A stretch of 50,434 bases of DNA from Hyphomicrobiaceae bacterium (GTDB lineage: Bacteria > Pseudomonadota > Alphaproteobacteria > Rhizobiales > Xanthobacteraceae), in the NCBI GenBank assembly GCA_021324465.1, contig JAJPJB010000083.1, forward strand, positions 1 to 50,434, given 5' to 3'. Below are positions 15,148-39,465 of the stretch, in pieces. Both the position numbers and the translations under genes were made by a program. The number at the start of each line of letters is the position of its first letter. Positions within the stretch are counted from its first letter, which is position 1. The notes under the pieces were generated by a model, which saw nothing but the letters and a program-made list of their open reading frames with translations, was not told the DNA's origin and made no database searches.

Positions 15148-15585
15148 TCAGCCGCGTACGGCGGCTTTCGCCGCTGGCTTGCCTAGAGCTTGCGCATCGC
15201 GCGCCAGGTCTTCGAGGTTGATGCGGGATAGTGCGACGCCGAATTCCTGCTCGGCGTGCGCCATGGCCGGCAGCACAATCTTGGTCAAAAGGTCAGAGCC
15301 GCCGTGTGGCTCGGCCGCCTCCTCGACGGTGCCGGCCGCGCGCAAAATATCATTGGCGGTCACGCGCCGGCGGTCGCGTGCGAGCTCATAACCGCCACGC
15401 GGCCCACGAATGCCTTTAAGAATTCCGCAACGCACAAGCGCCTGCAGGACAGGTTCGAGGTGGCGCGGCGGCAGACCGTGTCGGGCGGCGAGCGTCTTCG
15501 CAGAGACAGGCTGGCCATGCGTCTGCAGGGCCACATCAATCACTGCAGCAATAGCGAGAACTCCTTTGCGCGGGAGCAGAGGCAT
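15148..15585 (-). CDS. Rrf2 family transcriptional regulator
   Basis: 145 residues with an N-terminal winged helix (KTLAARHGLPPRHLEPVLQ recognition region, then GILKGIRGPRGGYELAR wing), the Rrf2 pattern. Most of the family bind iron-sulfur clusters through three cysteines near residues 90-105; here the only cysteine is at about 53 (LVRCGIL), so a classic IscR/RirA/NsrR cluster is not possible and sensing must differ. The ATG at 15585 gives a full domain. It lies 95 bases after dut in the same direction and 131 bases before divL. The upstream gap holds an inverted repeat that could be its own operator. The target genes are unknown. Confidence 0.88.
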   Translation of the reverse strand: MPLLPRKGVLAIAAVIDVALQTHGQPVSAKTLAARHGLPPRHLEPVLQALVRCGILKGIRGPRGGYELARDRRRVTANDILRAAGTVEEAAEPHGGSDLLTKIVLPAMAHAEQEFGVALSRINLEDLARDAQALGKPAAKAAVRG

Positions 15586-15622
15586 CGATGGGGAACGTCG
15601 CTGGGCGGAAAATTGTTTCGAT

Positions 15623-15637
15623 AGCTTCGACTAAGCT
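15623..15637. promoter_or_regulatory. Inverted repeat upstream of the Rrf2 gene
   Basis: AGCTT-CGACT-AAGCT, perfect 5-bp arms, about 40 bases before the Rrf2 start; an AT-rich stretch (TTGTAATATAGTA read on the minus strand) lies just beyond. Autoregulation would place an operator here. This is only a position-based guess. Confidence 0.3.
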
Positions 15638-15680
15638 GGTACTATATTACAACTGACCCGCGGTCCAGATGAACTGCAAT

Positions 15681-16166
15681 TTAGTCGCGCTTGTCGACAG
15701 TGTTTGTTGTCGTACCGGTGGAACCGAAGCCGGATGCGTTTCGCTCAGTCAGGTCTAGACTGGCACATTCAACAAGAGTCGCCTGTATAATTGGCGCAAC
15801 GACTAGCTGCGCAATGCGCGCGCCACGCTGAATGACGAACGGCTTGGTGCCGAGATTTACAAGAATGACTTGTATTTCTCCACGGTAATCGGCATCGATC
15901 GTTCCGGGCGCGTTGAGTACGGTCACGCCTTCACGGATAGCAAGTCCCGACCGCGGTCTGACCTGTGCCTCATAGCCTGGCGGCACCGCGATCGCGACGC
16001 CTGTCGGAATGAGCGCGCGGCTTCCGGGCGCTATCTCGATCGGCGCCTCGGTGGGGACAGCGGCATGCAGATCGAGACCTGCTGCGAGCTTGCTTTGATA
16101 GGTCGGCAACGGCAGATCGGCCCCGTGCGGCAGGCGCATGATGCTCAGCGTGATGGTCAAGGTCAC
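15681..16166 (-). CDS. dut: dUTP diphosphatase
   Basis: Hydrolyses dUTP to dUMP, keeping uracil out of DNA and feeding thymidylate synthesis; acts as a trimer. All five motifs are visible: AAGLDLHA, PRSGLAI, GTIDADYRGEIQVILVN, GARIAQLVV and the P-loop-like RNASGFGSTG near the C terminus. The start is a GTG at 16166 whose GTGA overlaps the coaBC stop, suggesting coupled translation, and it gives a usual length of 161. An ATG nine codons later (16139) would remove part of the first strand. coaBC-dut is a common alphaproteobacterial pair. Confidence 0.96.
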   Translation of the reverse strand: MTLTITLSIMRLPHGADLPLPTYQSKLAAGLDLHAAVPTEAPIEIAPGSRALIPTGVAIAVPPGYEAQVRPRSGLAIREGVTVLNAPGTIDADYRGEIQVILVNLGTKPFVIQRGARIAQLVVAPIIQATLVECASLDLTERNASGFGSTGTTTNTVDKRD

Positions 16167-17614
16167 GGTCCTGCGGCGTCAAGATCCTTCAACGACCGGG
16201 CAATGCGCTGCACGAGCATGCGCGCGACATCGCCCTTGGACTGCGGCGGCCAATTCTCCACCCCGCCGGCGCTGACCAGATGAACCGTGTTGCTGTCGCC
16301 GCCCATAACACCCGTTTCAGGCGAGACGTCATTGGCCACGATCCAGTCGCAGCCTTTCTTCGCGAGCTTTGCCCGGGCATTCGCAATCACATCATGGGTC
16401 TCAGCCGCGAATCCGATGACAAGGCGCGGTCGGTTCGCCTGCCGATGGGCAATGGTGGACAGAATGTCGGGGTTTTCGACAAGCTTCAGCGCCGGGCTCC
16501 GGTCCTGCTGCTTCTTGATCTTATGGTCGCTTGGCTGTTCAGCGCGCCAATCGGCGACGGCGGCGGCGAAGATTGCGACGTCCGCCGGCAACGCGCGTTC
16601 GACCGCTTGGAGCATCTGCCGCGCGGTTTCGATCTTGACGACATCGACCCCGGGCGGATCGGGCAGACTGACTGGGCCGCTCACCAGCACGACGTCGGCG
16701 CCGGCCGCGGCGGCCGCCGCGGCGATGGCGTGGCCCTGCTTGCCCGAAGAGCGGTTGGCGATGAAGCGCACCGGGTCGATGGGCTCATTTGTGGGACCGG
16801 ACGTGACCAGCACACGTCGGCCGGTCAGCAATCGGGTACCGTGCAGGACCAGCTCGGCGGCGGCAACGATCTCGAGCGGCTCAGCCATGCGGCCGACGCC
16901 ACCTTCACCGCGCTCGGCCATTTCGCCGACATTGGGACCGACGACGTGAACACCGTCGGTCGTAAGCTGCGCCAGGTTGCGTTGGGTCGCCTTGGCAGCC
17001 CACATTTGCGGATTCATCGCCGGCGCGATCAGGATCGGCTTATCGGTCGCTAAAAGGACCGCGCTTGCGAGATCGTCGGCGTGGCCGCCGGCCATTTTCG
17101 CCAGCAAATCGGCGGTCGCGGGCGCCACCACGATGAGATCGGTGTCGCGGGCGAGGCGAATGTGGCCGACATCGAATTCGCTTTTGGGATCGAACAGATC
17201 GGTGTGGACATGATTGCCGCACAGCGCGCCGGCAGCCAGCGGCGTGACGAAATGCTGCGCGGCCGCGGTCAGAATGCAGCGCACAAGGATGCTGCGGTCT
17301 TGCAGTCGGCGAATAAGATCGAGCGATTTGTAGGCGGCAATGCCACCACCGACGATGAGAACGAGGCGATGGCGGTCGGCCGCTTCGGAGCGGAGCCCTG
17401 GTTCGGCCCGGCTCCCAGTCGAAGCGCGCCGCGGCTCAGCAAGCGCTGGATTCGGCGGATTGATCAGGTCGCGCGCGTCGCACACCGTTTCCTGGGCCGC
17501 TTCGCGCAGGATCATGCGAATCTCGTCTTCCATCGAACGGCCATGCCGGGCGGCGCGCAGCCGCAGCAGCCGTTTCAGCGTGTCGTCGAGCTGGCGGACG
17601 GTGAGACTGGCCAT
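16163..17614 (-). CDS. coaBC: CoaBC (phosphopantothenoylcysteine synthetase/decarboxylase) with an N-terminal ribbon-helix-helix domain
   Basis: Two steps of coenzyme A synthesis. The CoaC half has [16 protein letters not shown], the catalytic histidine in [20 protein letters not shown] (His151) and the PAMNPQMW loop. The CoaB half has [39 protein letters not shown] and GFAAETHD. Unusually, residues 1-40 ([20 protein letters not shown] and the following [12 protein letters not shown]) look like a FitA/Arc-type ribbon-helix-helix DNA-binding domain, joined by a ~40-residue linker. The ATG at 17614 has AGGA eight bases upstream. Between it and the CoaC domain there is no stop and no ATG followed by a good start context, though a GTG at codon 44 preceded by AGGAAAC could serve as an internal start. 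Overlaps dut by four bases. Confidence 0.93.
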
Positions 17615-17677
17615 GACAATAGTCCTAACCTGCGCAAAAGGAATAGCAGACCTATGATTGCATCGCAATCACTGCAA

Positions 17678-19249
17678 TCAAAGCCGCATGCCAATGATCA
17701 CCGCCAGCAGCGCCGCAATCACCCACAGCGCGGCCACCAGCCAATAGCCGCGTCGCCGCTCGGTCTTGTCGAGTTCGGCGATGGTCTGCGGCGACAGAAC
17801 CAGGCCATCGCGGGTGATCTCATCGAGCTGGTCGAGCACCCGGGCGCCCCGCATGAGCAGCCCCGGCGCGCTGCCCACAAAGCGGCCGATCTCGGCGGCG
17901 CCTTCGGCCGCGGTTTCCAGGCGCCCGACCAGGCCGAGATTGCGCGCCATCCATTCGCGCACCACAGGCTCCGCCGTGCTCCACATGTCGAGCTTGGGGT
18001 CCATCGCGCGGGCCACGCCTTCGACGACGACCATGGTCTTCTGCAGCAGCAACAGTTCCGGCCGCGTGCGCATGTCAAACAGGCCGGTCACTTCGAACAA
18101 CAGCGACAGCAGCTTCGCCATCGAAATATCTTCGGCGGTGCGATTATGGATCGGCTCGCCGATGGCGCGGATCGCTTGCGCAAAGCTTTCGACAGAGTGA
18201 TGCCGTGGCACATAGCCGGCTTCGAAATGGATCTCCGCGGTCCGATGATAATCGCGGGTAATGAAACCGTGCAGAATTTCGGCGAGGAACAACCGCTCCT
18301 TGACGCCCAGCCGACCCATGATCCCGAAGTCAACGGCGATCAGGCGGCCCTCTTCATCGACAAACAGATTGCCCGGATGCATGTCGGCATGGAAAAAACC
18401 GTCGCGCAGGGCGTGGCGGAGAAAAGTCTGAATGAGGTTGCGGCCAAGCCGGCGCAAATCATGGCCTCGGGCCTGCAGCCGCGCGCGGTCGGACAGCGGC
18501 ACCCCTTCGATCCATTCGAGTGTCAGCACTTCCTTGGTGGTGCGATCCCAGTCAACTGCCGGCACCCGGAAATCTGGATCGTCCTTGGTGTTCTCCGCCA
18601 TTTCCGATAGCGCCGCCGCCTCGAGGCGAAAATCCATCTCGAGCAGGACGGTACGGCGCAGCGTGTCGACGACTTCGACCAGCCGCAGCCGTTGCGCCTC
18701 CGCCGACACGCGTTCGGCGCGCTCCGCCGCATAGGTAAATGCGGCGAGATCGGCATGAAAGCGCTGCTCGATGCCGGGCCGCAGCACTTTGACGGCGACC
18801 GGGCGCGGCTCGTCTCGCCCCGCAACCGTCGCGCGATGCACCTGCGCGATCGAAGCCGCGGCAATCGCCGGGCCGAAACTCAGATAGACCGCACTGAGCG
18901 GCTTTTCGAAGGAGGCTGCGACAGCCGCCTCGGCCGCTTCTTGCGCAAACGGCGGCATCTGATCCTGCAGCCGCTCGAGGTCGCGCGCCAGTCGGTCGCC
19001 GACGACATCGGGTCGGGTCGCCAGGAACTGGCCAAGCTTCACATAGCTCGGGCCGAGCCGCGCCAATGCCGCCGAGAGGCGCACGTCAGTGCCGTCTTTG
19101 GCCGGCCGCTCGAACATGCGCGCGAGCCGCAGCAGCGGCCGCGCCGGTACCGGGACCATGGTCGGCTCGATCACGCCAAGCACGCCTTCGCGCGCAAACA
19201 CAAAGCCGGCGCGGGCCAGACGGATCAGATGCGCGGGTGCGGAGATCAC
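17678..19249 (-). CDS. ubiB: Ubiquinone biosynthesis ATPase/kinase-like protein UbiB
   Basis: Membrane-anchored member of the ABC1/ADCK family required for ubiquinone synthesis. Of 523 residues: KxGQ motif KLGQ (71-74), the alanine-rich loop [11 protein letters not shown] (~130-140) that replaces a glycine loop, the lysine in VAVKVLRP (154), catalytic HADMHPGNL (287-295) and AVDFG (~305-309). A C-terminal transmembrane helix ([20 protein letters not shown], about 498-518) fits the family. The GTG start at 19249 overlaps the ubiE stop (GTGA), so the two are probably coupled. It is followed after 63 bases by coaBC. Confidence 0.96.
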
Positions 19250-36795: not shown

Positions 36796-37623
36796 TCACT
36801 TTCCGGTTTCGTCGATCGCCCGCTTCTGATCCGCGCGCAGCGCGTCCGGATGCGGCATGGCGATGACGTTGTAGCCGGAATCGACGAAGTGGATTTCGCC
36901 GGTGACGCCGGTCGAGAGATCGGACAAAAGATAAAGCCCGGCGCCGCCGAGCTCGTCGAGCGTTACGCCGCGATGCAGCGGCGAATGACGCTGCTGGAAA
37001 GCGAACATCGTGCGCGCGTCGCCGATACCGGCGCCCGCCAAGGTGCGGATTGGGCCCGAGGAGATCGCATTGACGCGAATGGCGCTGCCACCGAAATCGA
37101 CGGCAAGATAGCGGACCGAAGCTTCGAGCGCTGCCTTGGCGACGCCCATGGCGTTGTAATTCGGCATCGCCCGCTCTCCGCCATTATAGGTGAGCGTCAG
37201 CATGGCGCCGCCGTTCGGCATCATCGCGGCGGCGCGCTTGGCCACCTCGGTGAATGAGAAACACGAGATCAGCATGGTGCGCAGAAAATTCTCGCGCGTC
37301 GTGTCGGCATAGCGTCCGGTCAGCTGATTCTTGTCGGAAAACGCGATGGCATGGACCAAAAAATCGAGTGTGCCCCAGGTGCGGGCGAGTTCGGCAAAGA
37401 CCGCGTCGACGGAAGCGATATCTTCCACATCGCATGGCAGCACCAGATCGGCATCGACCGACGCCGCGAGCGGCTTCACCCGCTTGCCGAGTGCGTCGCC
37501 CTGATAGGTGAAAGCAAGCTTGGCATCATGCGCGGCGAGCGTTCGGGCAATGCCCCAGGCGATCGAATGATCGTTGGCGACCCCCATGATCAGGCCGCGC
37601 TTTCCCTGCATCAGTCCCGGCAT
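36796..37623 (-). CDS. fabI: Enoyl-ACP reductase (NADH) FabI
   Basis: Last reduction of each fatty acid elongation cycle. 275 residues, SDR fold: GKRGLIMGVANDHSIAWGIA, Tyr146 in TLTYNGGERAMPNYNAMG and the catalytic Tyr156-Met159-Lys163 (YNAMGVAK), which fall at the same numbers as in E. coli. The residue aligned to E. coli Gly93 is alanine (VHAIAFSDKN) and that aligned to Phe203 is alanine (GIGDARTM); both positions affect inhibitor binding in E. coli. It is the third gene of fabA-fabB-fabI, 12 bases after fabB. Confidence 0.95.
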   Translation of the reverse strand: MPGLMQGKRGLIMGVANDHSIAWGIARTLAAHDAKLAFTYQGDALGKRVKPLAASVDADLVLPCDVEDIASVDAVFAELARTWGTLDFLVHAIAFSDKNQLTGRYADTTRENFLRTMLISCFSFTEVAKRAAAMMPNGGAMLTLTYNGGERAMPNYNAMGVAKAALEASVRYLAVDFGGSAIRVNAISSGPIRTLAGAGIGDARTMFAFQQRHSPLHRGVTLDELGGAGLYLLSDLSTGVTGEIHFVDSGYNVIAMPHPDALRADQKRAIDETGK

Positions 37624-37635
37624 CAGGCGACCACC

Positions 37636-38852
37636 TTAGGCATCCACGTGCTTGAACACGACGGAGGCATTGGTGCCGCCAAAGCCGAACGAATTGGACA
37701 AGACGCAGCCGAGCCGCACATTGTCCTGGCGCGCGCGCGCGATGGGCATGTCGGCAAAGGCGGGATCGAGATTCTCGATATTGGCGCTTTCGCAGATGAA
37801 GCCCGAATTCATCATCAACAGCGAATAGATCGCCTCTTGCGCGCCGGCGGCGCCGAGCGAATGGCCGGTGAGCGATTGGTCGCCGAAATCGGCGGACATT
37901 TCGCGCCGAACACTTCGCGGATCGCCTCGATCTCCTTGAGATCGCCGATCGGCGTCGAGGTCGCATGCGGATTGATGTAATCGACCGGCGGTTTGACGCC
38001 TTCGAGCGCCATTTTCATGCACCGCACAGCGCCTTCGCCCGAAGGCGCCACCATGTCGGCGCCATCGGAGGTCGCGCCATAACCGGCAACTTCGGCGTAA
38101 ATCTTGGCGCCGCGCGCCTTGGCATGGTCGAGCTCTTCCAGCACCAGCACACCCGCGCCGCCCGCTATGACGAAGCCGTCACGGTCGGCATCATAGGCGC
38201 GCGAGGCTTTGTCCGGCGTCTGATTGAAGCTCGAGGACATCGCGCCCATGGCGTCGAACAGCACGGACAGCGTCCAGTCCAGTTCTTCGCAGCCGCCGGC
38301 AAAAATAATATCCTGCTTGCCCATTTGAATGGTCTCATAGGCATTGCCGATGCAATGGTTCGATGTCGCGCAGGCGGACGAGATCGAGTAGTTCACACCC
38401 TTGATCTTGAACCAGGTCGCAAGCGTGGCAGAGGCGGTGGAGGACATCGCCTTGGGCACTGCAAACGGCCCGACGCGCCTGGGACCCTTGCTGCGGGCGA
38501 TGTCGGCGCTCTCGACGATGGTCCGCGTCGAGGGGCCGCCTGAGCCCATGATGATGCCGGTGCGCGGGTGCGAGATCTCGGCTTCTTCCAGTCCGGCATC
38601 GCGGATCGCCTGTTCCATGGCGACGTGATTCCAGGCGGCGCCGCCGCCGAGAAAGCGCATCGCCCGGCGATCGACGGCTTCGCCGGCATCAAGCGTCGGC
38701 GCGCCATGGACCTGGCAGCGAAAGCCGAGCTCGGCATATTTGTCGGCGCGCACAATGCCGGATTTTGCCTCGCGCAGCGACGCCAAGACTTCCTGCGTAT
38801 TGTTGCCGATGGATGAGACGATGCCCATCCCGGTGACAACGACGCGTTTCAT
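37636..38852 (-). CDS. fabB: Beta-ketoacyl-ACP synthase I FabB, interrupted by a one-base frameshift
   Basis: Elongates unsaturated acyl-ACP made by FabA. The catalytic cysteine ([10 protein letters not shown], Cys161) and first histidine ([12 protein letters not shown], His296) are in the initial frame. At codon 326 the expected [14 protein letters not shown] reads ATNRSPAIR; the next frame continues perfectly as [20 protein letters not shown] and [20 protein letters not shown] to the stop at 37636. Restoring one base between 37875 and 37876 gives 405 residues, the normal FabB length. As read, translation ends at 37815 and lacks the catalytic lysine, second histidine and the C-terminal part. 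Because FabB is normally essential, a sequencing or assembly error is the leading explanation. Confidence 0.92.
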
Positions 38853-38937: not shown

Positions 38938-39465
38938 TCAGGCTCCGCTCGGTTGGACCTCGGGATCGCGGAACAAACCGACCTTAAGATCAAGCGCGCG
39001 ATAGATCACCGAGCCGTCGGCCGAGAGCCAGCCATCGGCGATGCCGAGCACGAGCTTCGAGCGCATCACACGCTTGATGTCGATGCCATAAACGATGTTC
39101 TTCATCGTCGGCAGCACTTGACCGGAAAATTTCAATTCGCCCATACCAAGCGCCCGGCCCTTGCCGGACGAGCCGAGCCAGCCGAGAAAGAAACCGAGCA
39201 GTTGCCACAGCGCATCGAGCCCCAGGCAGCCTGGCATGACCGGGTCGCCCTTGAAGTGGCAGGGAAAGAACCAGAGATCGGGCTTGAGGTCGAGCACCGC
39301 CCGCACCAGACCTTTGCCATATTGCCCGCCGACTTCGGCAATTTCGGAAATCCGATCAAACATGAGCATGGGCGGCAACGGCAGCTGCGGGCCCTCGCTA
39401 AAGAGCTCGCCTCGACCGCAGGCCAGCAGGTCCTCATAGTCGAAATTCGAACGCCGCTCCTGCAT
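38938..39465 (-). CDS. fabA: 3-hydroxydecanoyl-ACP dehydratase/isomerase FabA
   Basis: Introduces the cis double bond in unsaturated fatty acid synthesis. 175 residues, usual length. Catalytic His70 and Asp84 sit in [20 protein letters not shown], at the same numbers as in E. coli Fab[14 protein letters not shown] is the conserved strand after it. The ATG at 39465 has GGAG about nine bases upstream. First gene of fabA-fabB-fabI and divergent from irr, a typical Rhizobiales arrangement. Confidence 0.97.

Follow-up and report, generated by a model that had tools for sequence, protein, structure and literature searches.

A frame break at the conserved-lysine codon of fabB, most probably a base error in a draft alphaproteobacterial genome

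Results

The fabA-fabB-fabI locus

The window, the whole stretch of DNA analysed here, is the complete 50,434-base contig C13 of the draft genome G000, which comprises 4.57 Mb in 107 contigs at a completeness of 99.67 and a contamination of 0.72. Judged by FabB, its nearest relatives are Xanthobacteraceae and Pseudolabrys-type metagenome assemblies. The minus strand carries fabA (38938..39465), fabB and fabI (36796..37623), in that order. fabA is intact, as originally predicted, and exceeds the cut-offs of both TIGR01749 and NF003509; fabI is likewise intact, with 502.5 bits against NF005078, whose cut-off is 446. A gene for a Fur-family regulator (PF01475; 39651-40220, plus strand) lies divergently beside the three.

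fabB runs from an ATG at 38852 to 37636 on the minus strand. Its starting frame is FabB-like up to the residues ISAT (37875..38852), covering positions 1-327 of the KAS I model NF005935 with PF00109 and the start of PF02801, and then leaves the family, adding an out-of-frame tail (37815..37874, minus strand) before a stop after 345 residues. The C-terminal 79 codons, ending in FKHVDA and a proper stop, are read in another frame (37636..37878, minus strand) that covers NF005935 positions 327-405 and the tail of PF02801. A whole-genome search with NF005935 splits the gene correspondingly, into model positions 1-327 at 37875-38852 and 327-405 at 37642-37878. KAS I is the best model for both pieces, which at 610.6 and 120.7 bits each fall below the curated cut-off of 630 for the full-length family.

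The break itself lies at 37875..37878 (minus strand), where alignments with relatives and the split of the model leave the codon for the conserved lysine of ATK-SLTGH one base short. Compared with the 405-residue FabB of the genus mate G004, the C-terminal part begins 1 base early, at the codon after the conserved lysine (residue 326 in G004). The one-base deletion that had been predicted at this codon is borne out by the G004 alignment and by the divided NF005935 match. The predicted course of the gene also holds: read in the window, the frame is normal to ISAT and then shifts, and the other frame is perfect to a stop (37636) that leaves 12 bases before the fabI start (37623). No second lesion, that is, no further stop or break, was seen in either part, in agreement with the prediction of no other damage. 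The break is away from contig ends and from long homopolymers.

In the usual KAS numbering Cys163, His298, Lys328 and His333 are catalytic, the residue roles being those given in PMC2649909; by its position, the broken lysine corresponds to the conserved lysine of KAS enzymes (Lys328). The nucleophile cysteine motif SACATS and the motif NPHATST are in the starting frame and GHSLGAAG is in the other, and the catalytic cysteine, two histidines and lysine are not all found in one frame, the lysine codon being incomplete. Since the conserved lysine is hit and the second catalytic histidine (GHS) falls in the lost part, the starting-frame product should be dead.

The split is not due to chance, given that in each of five relatives (G021, G006, G004, G001 and G035) the FabB ORF is divided at the break into two frames. 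In G030 the FabB ORF is truncated where the fetched stretch stops, and only its first part is seen. Other multi-frame rows appearing beside these five were judged from their coordinates to be antisense or over-extended ORFs and were rejected. Among 60 relative genomes, the 15 that score best share 89-94% identity with the first 322 residues of the window's FabB, and the full-length row at the greatest distance shares 69%.

fabB in relatives

A total of 110 FabB loci (L009-L118) were fetched, 80 from one search and 30 from a survey of 60 relatives. One of these is the window itself (L089) and two end before the site (L095 and L096); each of the 107 that are informative has an open frame through the lysine. 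This number combines two readings, of 69 and 38 loci (17 of the 38 being read from printed ends), and is partly redundant, some loci being the same record in both sets (e.g. L009 and L100). A stricter motif recovered 104 of the loci and missed L033, L034 and L088, in which the cysteine motif deviates from the pattern.

Of the 60 relatives, 29 are among the 110 loci and 27 more have full-length rows, with frames of 404-765 residues, that lie outside the 107-locus site count. The other four, G003, G022, G016 and G020, have no full-length FabB row. FabB is a piece at a contig end in G003 and two pieces on two contigs in G022, and a search for KAS I in G016, which is 60% complete, found none. G020, from another genus of the same family, is 98% complete and 4% contaminated, in 240 contigs. 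Inside its fabB (L278, G020:C41:11501-13200, plus strand) about 59 model positions are absent and the frame changes, with the junction at about 850; the second frame retains the lysine, and this genome yielded no further whole KAS I. The G020 lesion differs from that of the window and lies elsewhere in the gene, and may be either a real loss or a misassembly. Were it real, the family would include a case of fabB loss.

One way to reconcile the break with a working gene is recoding, in which programmed frameshifting or slippage by the ribosome or polymerase would bring the frame back and full-length FabB would be made. The perfect downstream frame is the sole point for such a mechanism, and an error in the record accounts for it equally well. 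By inspection, the junction has neither a slippery heptamer repeat of the common -1 type nor a long homopolymer. A deletion shared by close relatives, which the original prediction named alongside proof of recoding, was seen at 0 of the 107 informative loci. As the window's break was found in none of the relatives examined, conserved recoding is removed, and recoding at fabB is very unlikely.

Selection was compared across nine of the 12 named relatives, leaving out G010, G035 and G002. Before the break, the median dN/dS is 0.072 for the nine pairs with G000 against 0.0995 for the 36 other pairs; after the break, the medians are 0.154 and 0.141, respectively. Both parts of fabB are about as constrained as in the relatives, and there is no clear relaxation, on which ground an old pseudogene was rejected. 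Neither of the signs expected of a decaying gene, further lesions or relaxed dN/dS, was found in fabB.

Ketoacyl synthases and desaturases in the genome

Whether a loss of fabB could be borne depends on what else the genome encodes. The original prediction allowed that a second FabB or a FabF might make the lesion tolerable. The whole-genome search with NF005935 found no second KAS I gene, the two best-fitting pieces both being in the window, and its other matches were an intact FabF on C59 that exceeds its cut-offs and a pair of KAS genes on C41. The latter, of the PRK06519 and PRK06501 families, follow a FabZ-like gene (L147, G000:C41:1-20000; 15188-18185, plus strand) in an arrangement that we take to resemble the rhizobial cluster for very-long-chain fatty acids. 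The C41 cluster is possibly for the very-long-chain fatty acids of lipid A. Rescue by a desaturase was considered and rejected: PF00487, the one family covered by the search, gave no match in the genome at E <= 0.001, with five of 14 control genomes positive. Without a further KAS I gene or a PF00487 match, the FabA-FabB route would be dead if the sequence is taken as written.

These contents bear on the possibility that the deletion is a real and very recent loss in the strain, with unsaturated fatty acids made via FabF or the C41 KAS proteins or obtained from outside. The intact FabF and the two KAS proteins side by side on C41 are points in its favour, as is the broken fabB of the same-family draft G020, even though that lesion is different and larger. 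PMC8319022 describes a fabB deletion in Pseudomonas putida F1 as an unsaturated fatty acid auxotroph that is readily suppressed by raised FabF2 expression, and PMC4793157 reports that FabB of Shewanella oneidensis is not the sole enzyme for the elongation step. The latter source also states that E. coli needs FabB. A compensated loss is conceivable by analogy, because FabF2 can replace FabB in P. putida after suppressor mutations (PMC8319022). Bypass of a lost fabB by another KAS is possible in that species, where the loss was a laboratory deletion, whereas in the window's genome such a bypass would be only conceivable. A search of the literature for essential FabB in alphaproteobacteria and for fabA-fabB in Rhizobium found nothing directly useful. 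Against a real loss stand the absence of a PF00487 match and the intact fabA next to the broken gene, and, in the gene itself, the lack of a second lesion and of clear dN/dS relaxation, so that any lesion must be very young. On this evidence a real loss is unlikely.

Other frame breaks in the same assembly

The frequency of such breaks was assessed by comparing ORFs of the relative G021 (73 stretches, 1,446,926 bases) with G000 (58 stretches and the window, 1,125,666 bases) by tblastn, an identity of 45% or more being required of each match. The final run gave 225 ORF comparisons over 72,325 aligned residues, with four multi-frame rows in three genes: fabB, secA and a BKACE-type gene. secA, which has two breaks, occupies two of the four rows, as one of the G021 stretches stops within it. 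Since fabB led to the comparison, the unbiased figure is 3 of 224, fabB being excluded as the starting gene. Within the window 23 comparisons were possible and fabB alone was broken. An earlier, stricter run of 197 comparisons gave five rows, one of which, leuD-like (L130 against L232), was discarded as false, because its start had been set too far upstream and the segment thereby added contains stops.

Each of these breaks (fabB, the two in secA and that in the BKACE-type gene) is a net loss of one base. Four breaks in 72,325 residues is a rough rate of one per 54 kb. The breaks are a minority, 221 of the 225 comparisons having none, and this counts against an error. With the roles of the two genomes swapped, 230 comparisons gave one multi-frame row, which came from the broken G000 BKACE ORF as query; taken alone, the contrast between four of 225 rows in G000 and none of G021's own is not strong. 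The BKACE-type gene (3-keto-5-aminohexanoate cleavage enzyme-like) is broken at about 18460 in L250 (G000:C58:20001-40000), on the plus strand.

The secA breaks lie at about 16690 and 15420 in L239 (G000:C1:80001-100000, minus strand) and leave the gene in three frames; compared with G021, they fall at about residue 421 and again near the C-terminus. The size of the first follows by arithmetic: 17906 aligns with query residue 16 and 16692 with residue 421, so that 1214 bases separate them, one short of the expected 1215. G000 has a single match to SecA_DEAD (PF07517), in an open frame of 429 residues. SecA is in one frame of 959-999 residues in 15 of 19 other genomes of the genus that were searched. 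In the remaining four it has 670 residues (G002), 368 residues (G016), pieces only (G001) or no match (G015); these genomes are 60-79% complete, and contig ends are the likely reason. SecA, the protein-export motor, is indispensable, and a bacterium without it is not viable. As this is the only copy, the secA breaks must be errors.

Merging of strains offers another route to the fabB break, a minority allele with a true deletion having been chosen for the consensus. Two points are in keeping with this: the draft is in 107 contigs, and metagenome-assembled genomes are its nearest named relatives by FabB. However, the same event would be needed twice in secA and once in the BKACE-type gene, and contamination is given as 0.72%; strain merging can be given hardly any credence.

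Discussion

The break in fabB is, with high probability, a base error in the draft sequence record. The base would have been lost by a read or consensus error in a draft that is probably a metagenome-type assembly, and not in the organism; we infer that the cell's own DNA carries it. The cell would then most likely have an ordinary full-length FabB, which would elongate the FabA product on the anaerobic route to unsaturated fatty acids. The error reading draws support from the 107 of 107 fetched loci that keep both frame and lysine, from a constraint on the gene about as in relatives, and from the lack of any other KAS I gene or PF00487 desaturase match to carry a loss. Its weight, however, is in secA and not in the break counts. 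A record in which secA is broken twice comes from an assembly that loses single bases, and the fabB break, of the same type and absent from the relatives examined, then needs no further cause. Of the options originally offered, a sequencing or assembly error, a very recent lesion and a loss compensated by another FabB or FabF, it is because of the single-base losses, twice in this assembly's only secA, that the first is now best supported; the other two stand much lower.

A real loss would have to coincide with the demonstrable dropping of bases in secA by the same assembly. Against an error, the position of the break, away from contig ends and from long homopolymers, also counts. Taken as a true deletion, the break would mean that an alphaproteobacterium with an intact fabA has just lost its KAS I, hit at the catalytic lysine, and depends on a different ketoacyl synthase to elongate the product of FabA, with G020 as a second, independent loss. 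This fuller account is quite unlikely; if the deletion were true, it would show that an alphaproteobacterium can bypass KAS I in nature.

For an error in the record, the practical consequence is one of caution. Gene losses called from G000, those in reconstructions of its unsaturated fatty acid pathway among them, need a check of the frame against relatives first.

Compared with FabB proteins of the NF005935 family in the fabA-fabB-fabI arrangement, the window's gene is alike in that both of its pieces match KAS I best, and differs in that its lysine codon is recorded one base short. In the latter respect it resembles the residual indel errors of draft and long-read metagenome assemblies, in which single-base losses likewise split conserved genes. 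The errors in this assembly may stem from long reads, low coverage or consensus calling.
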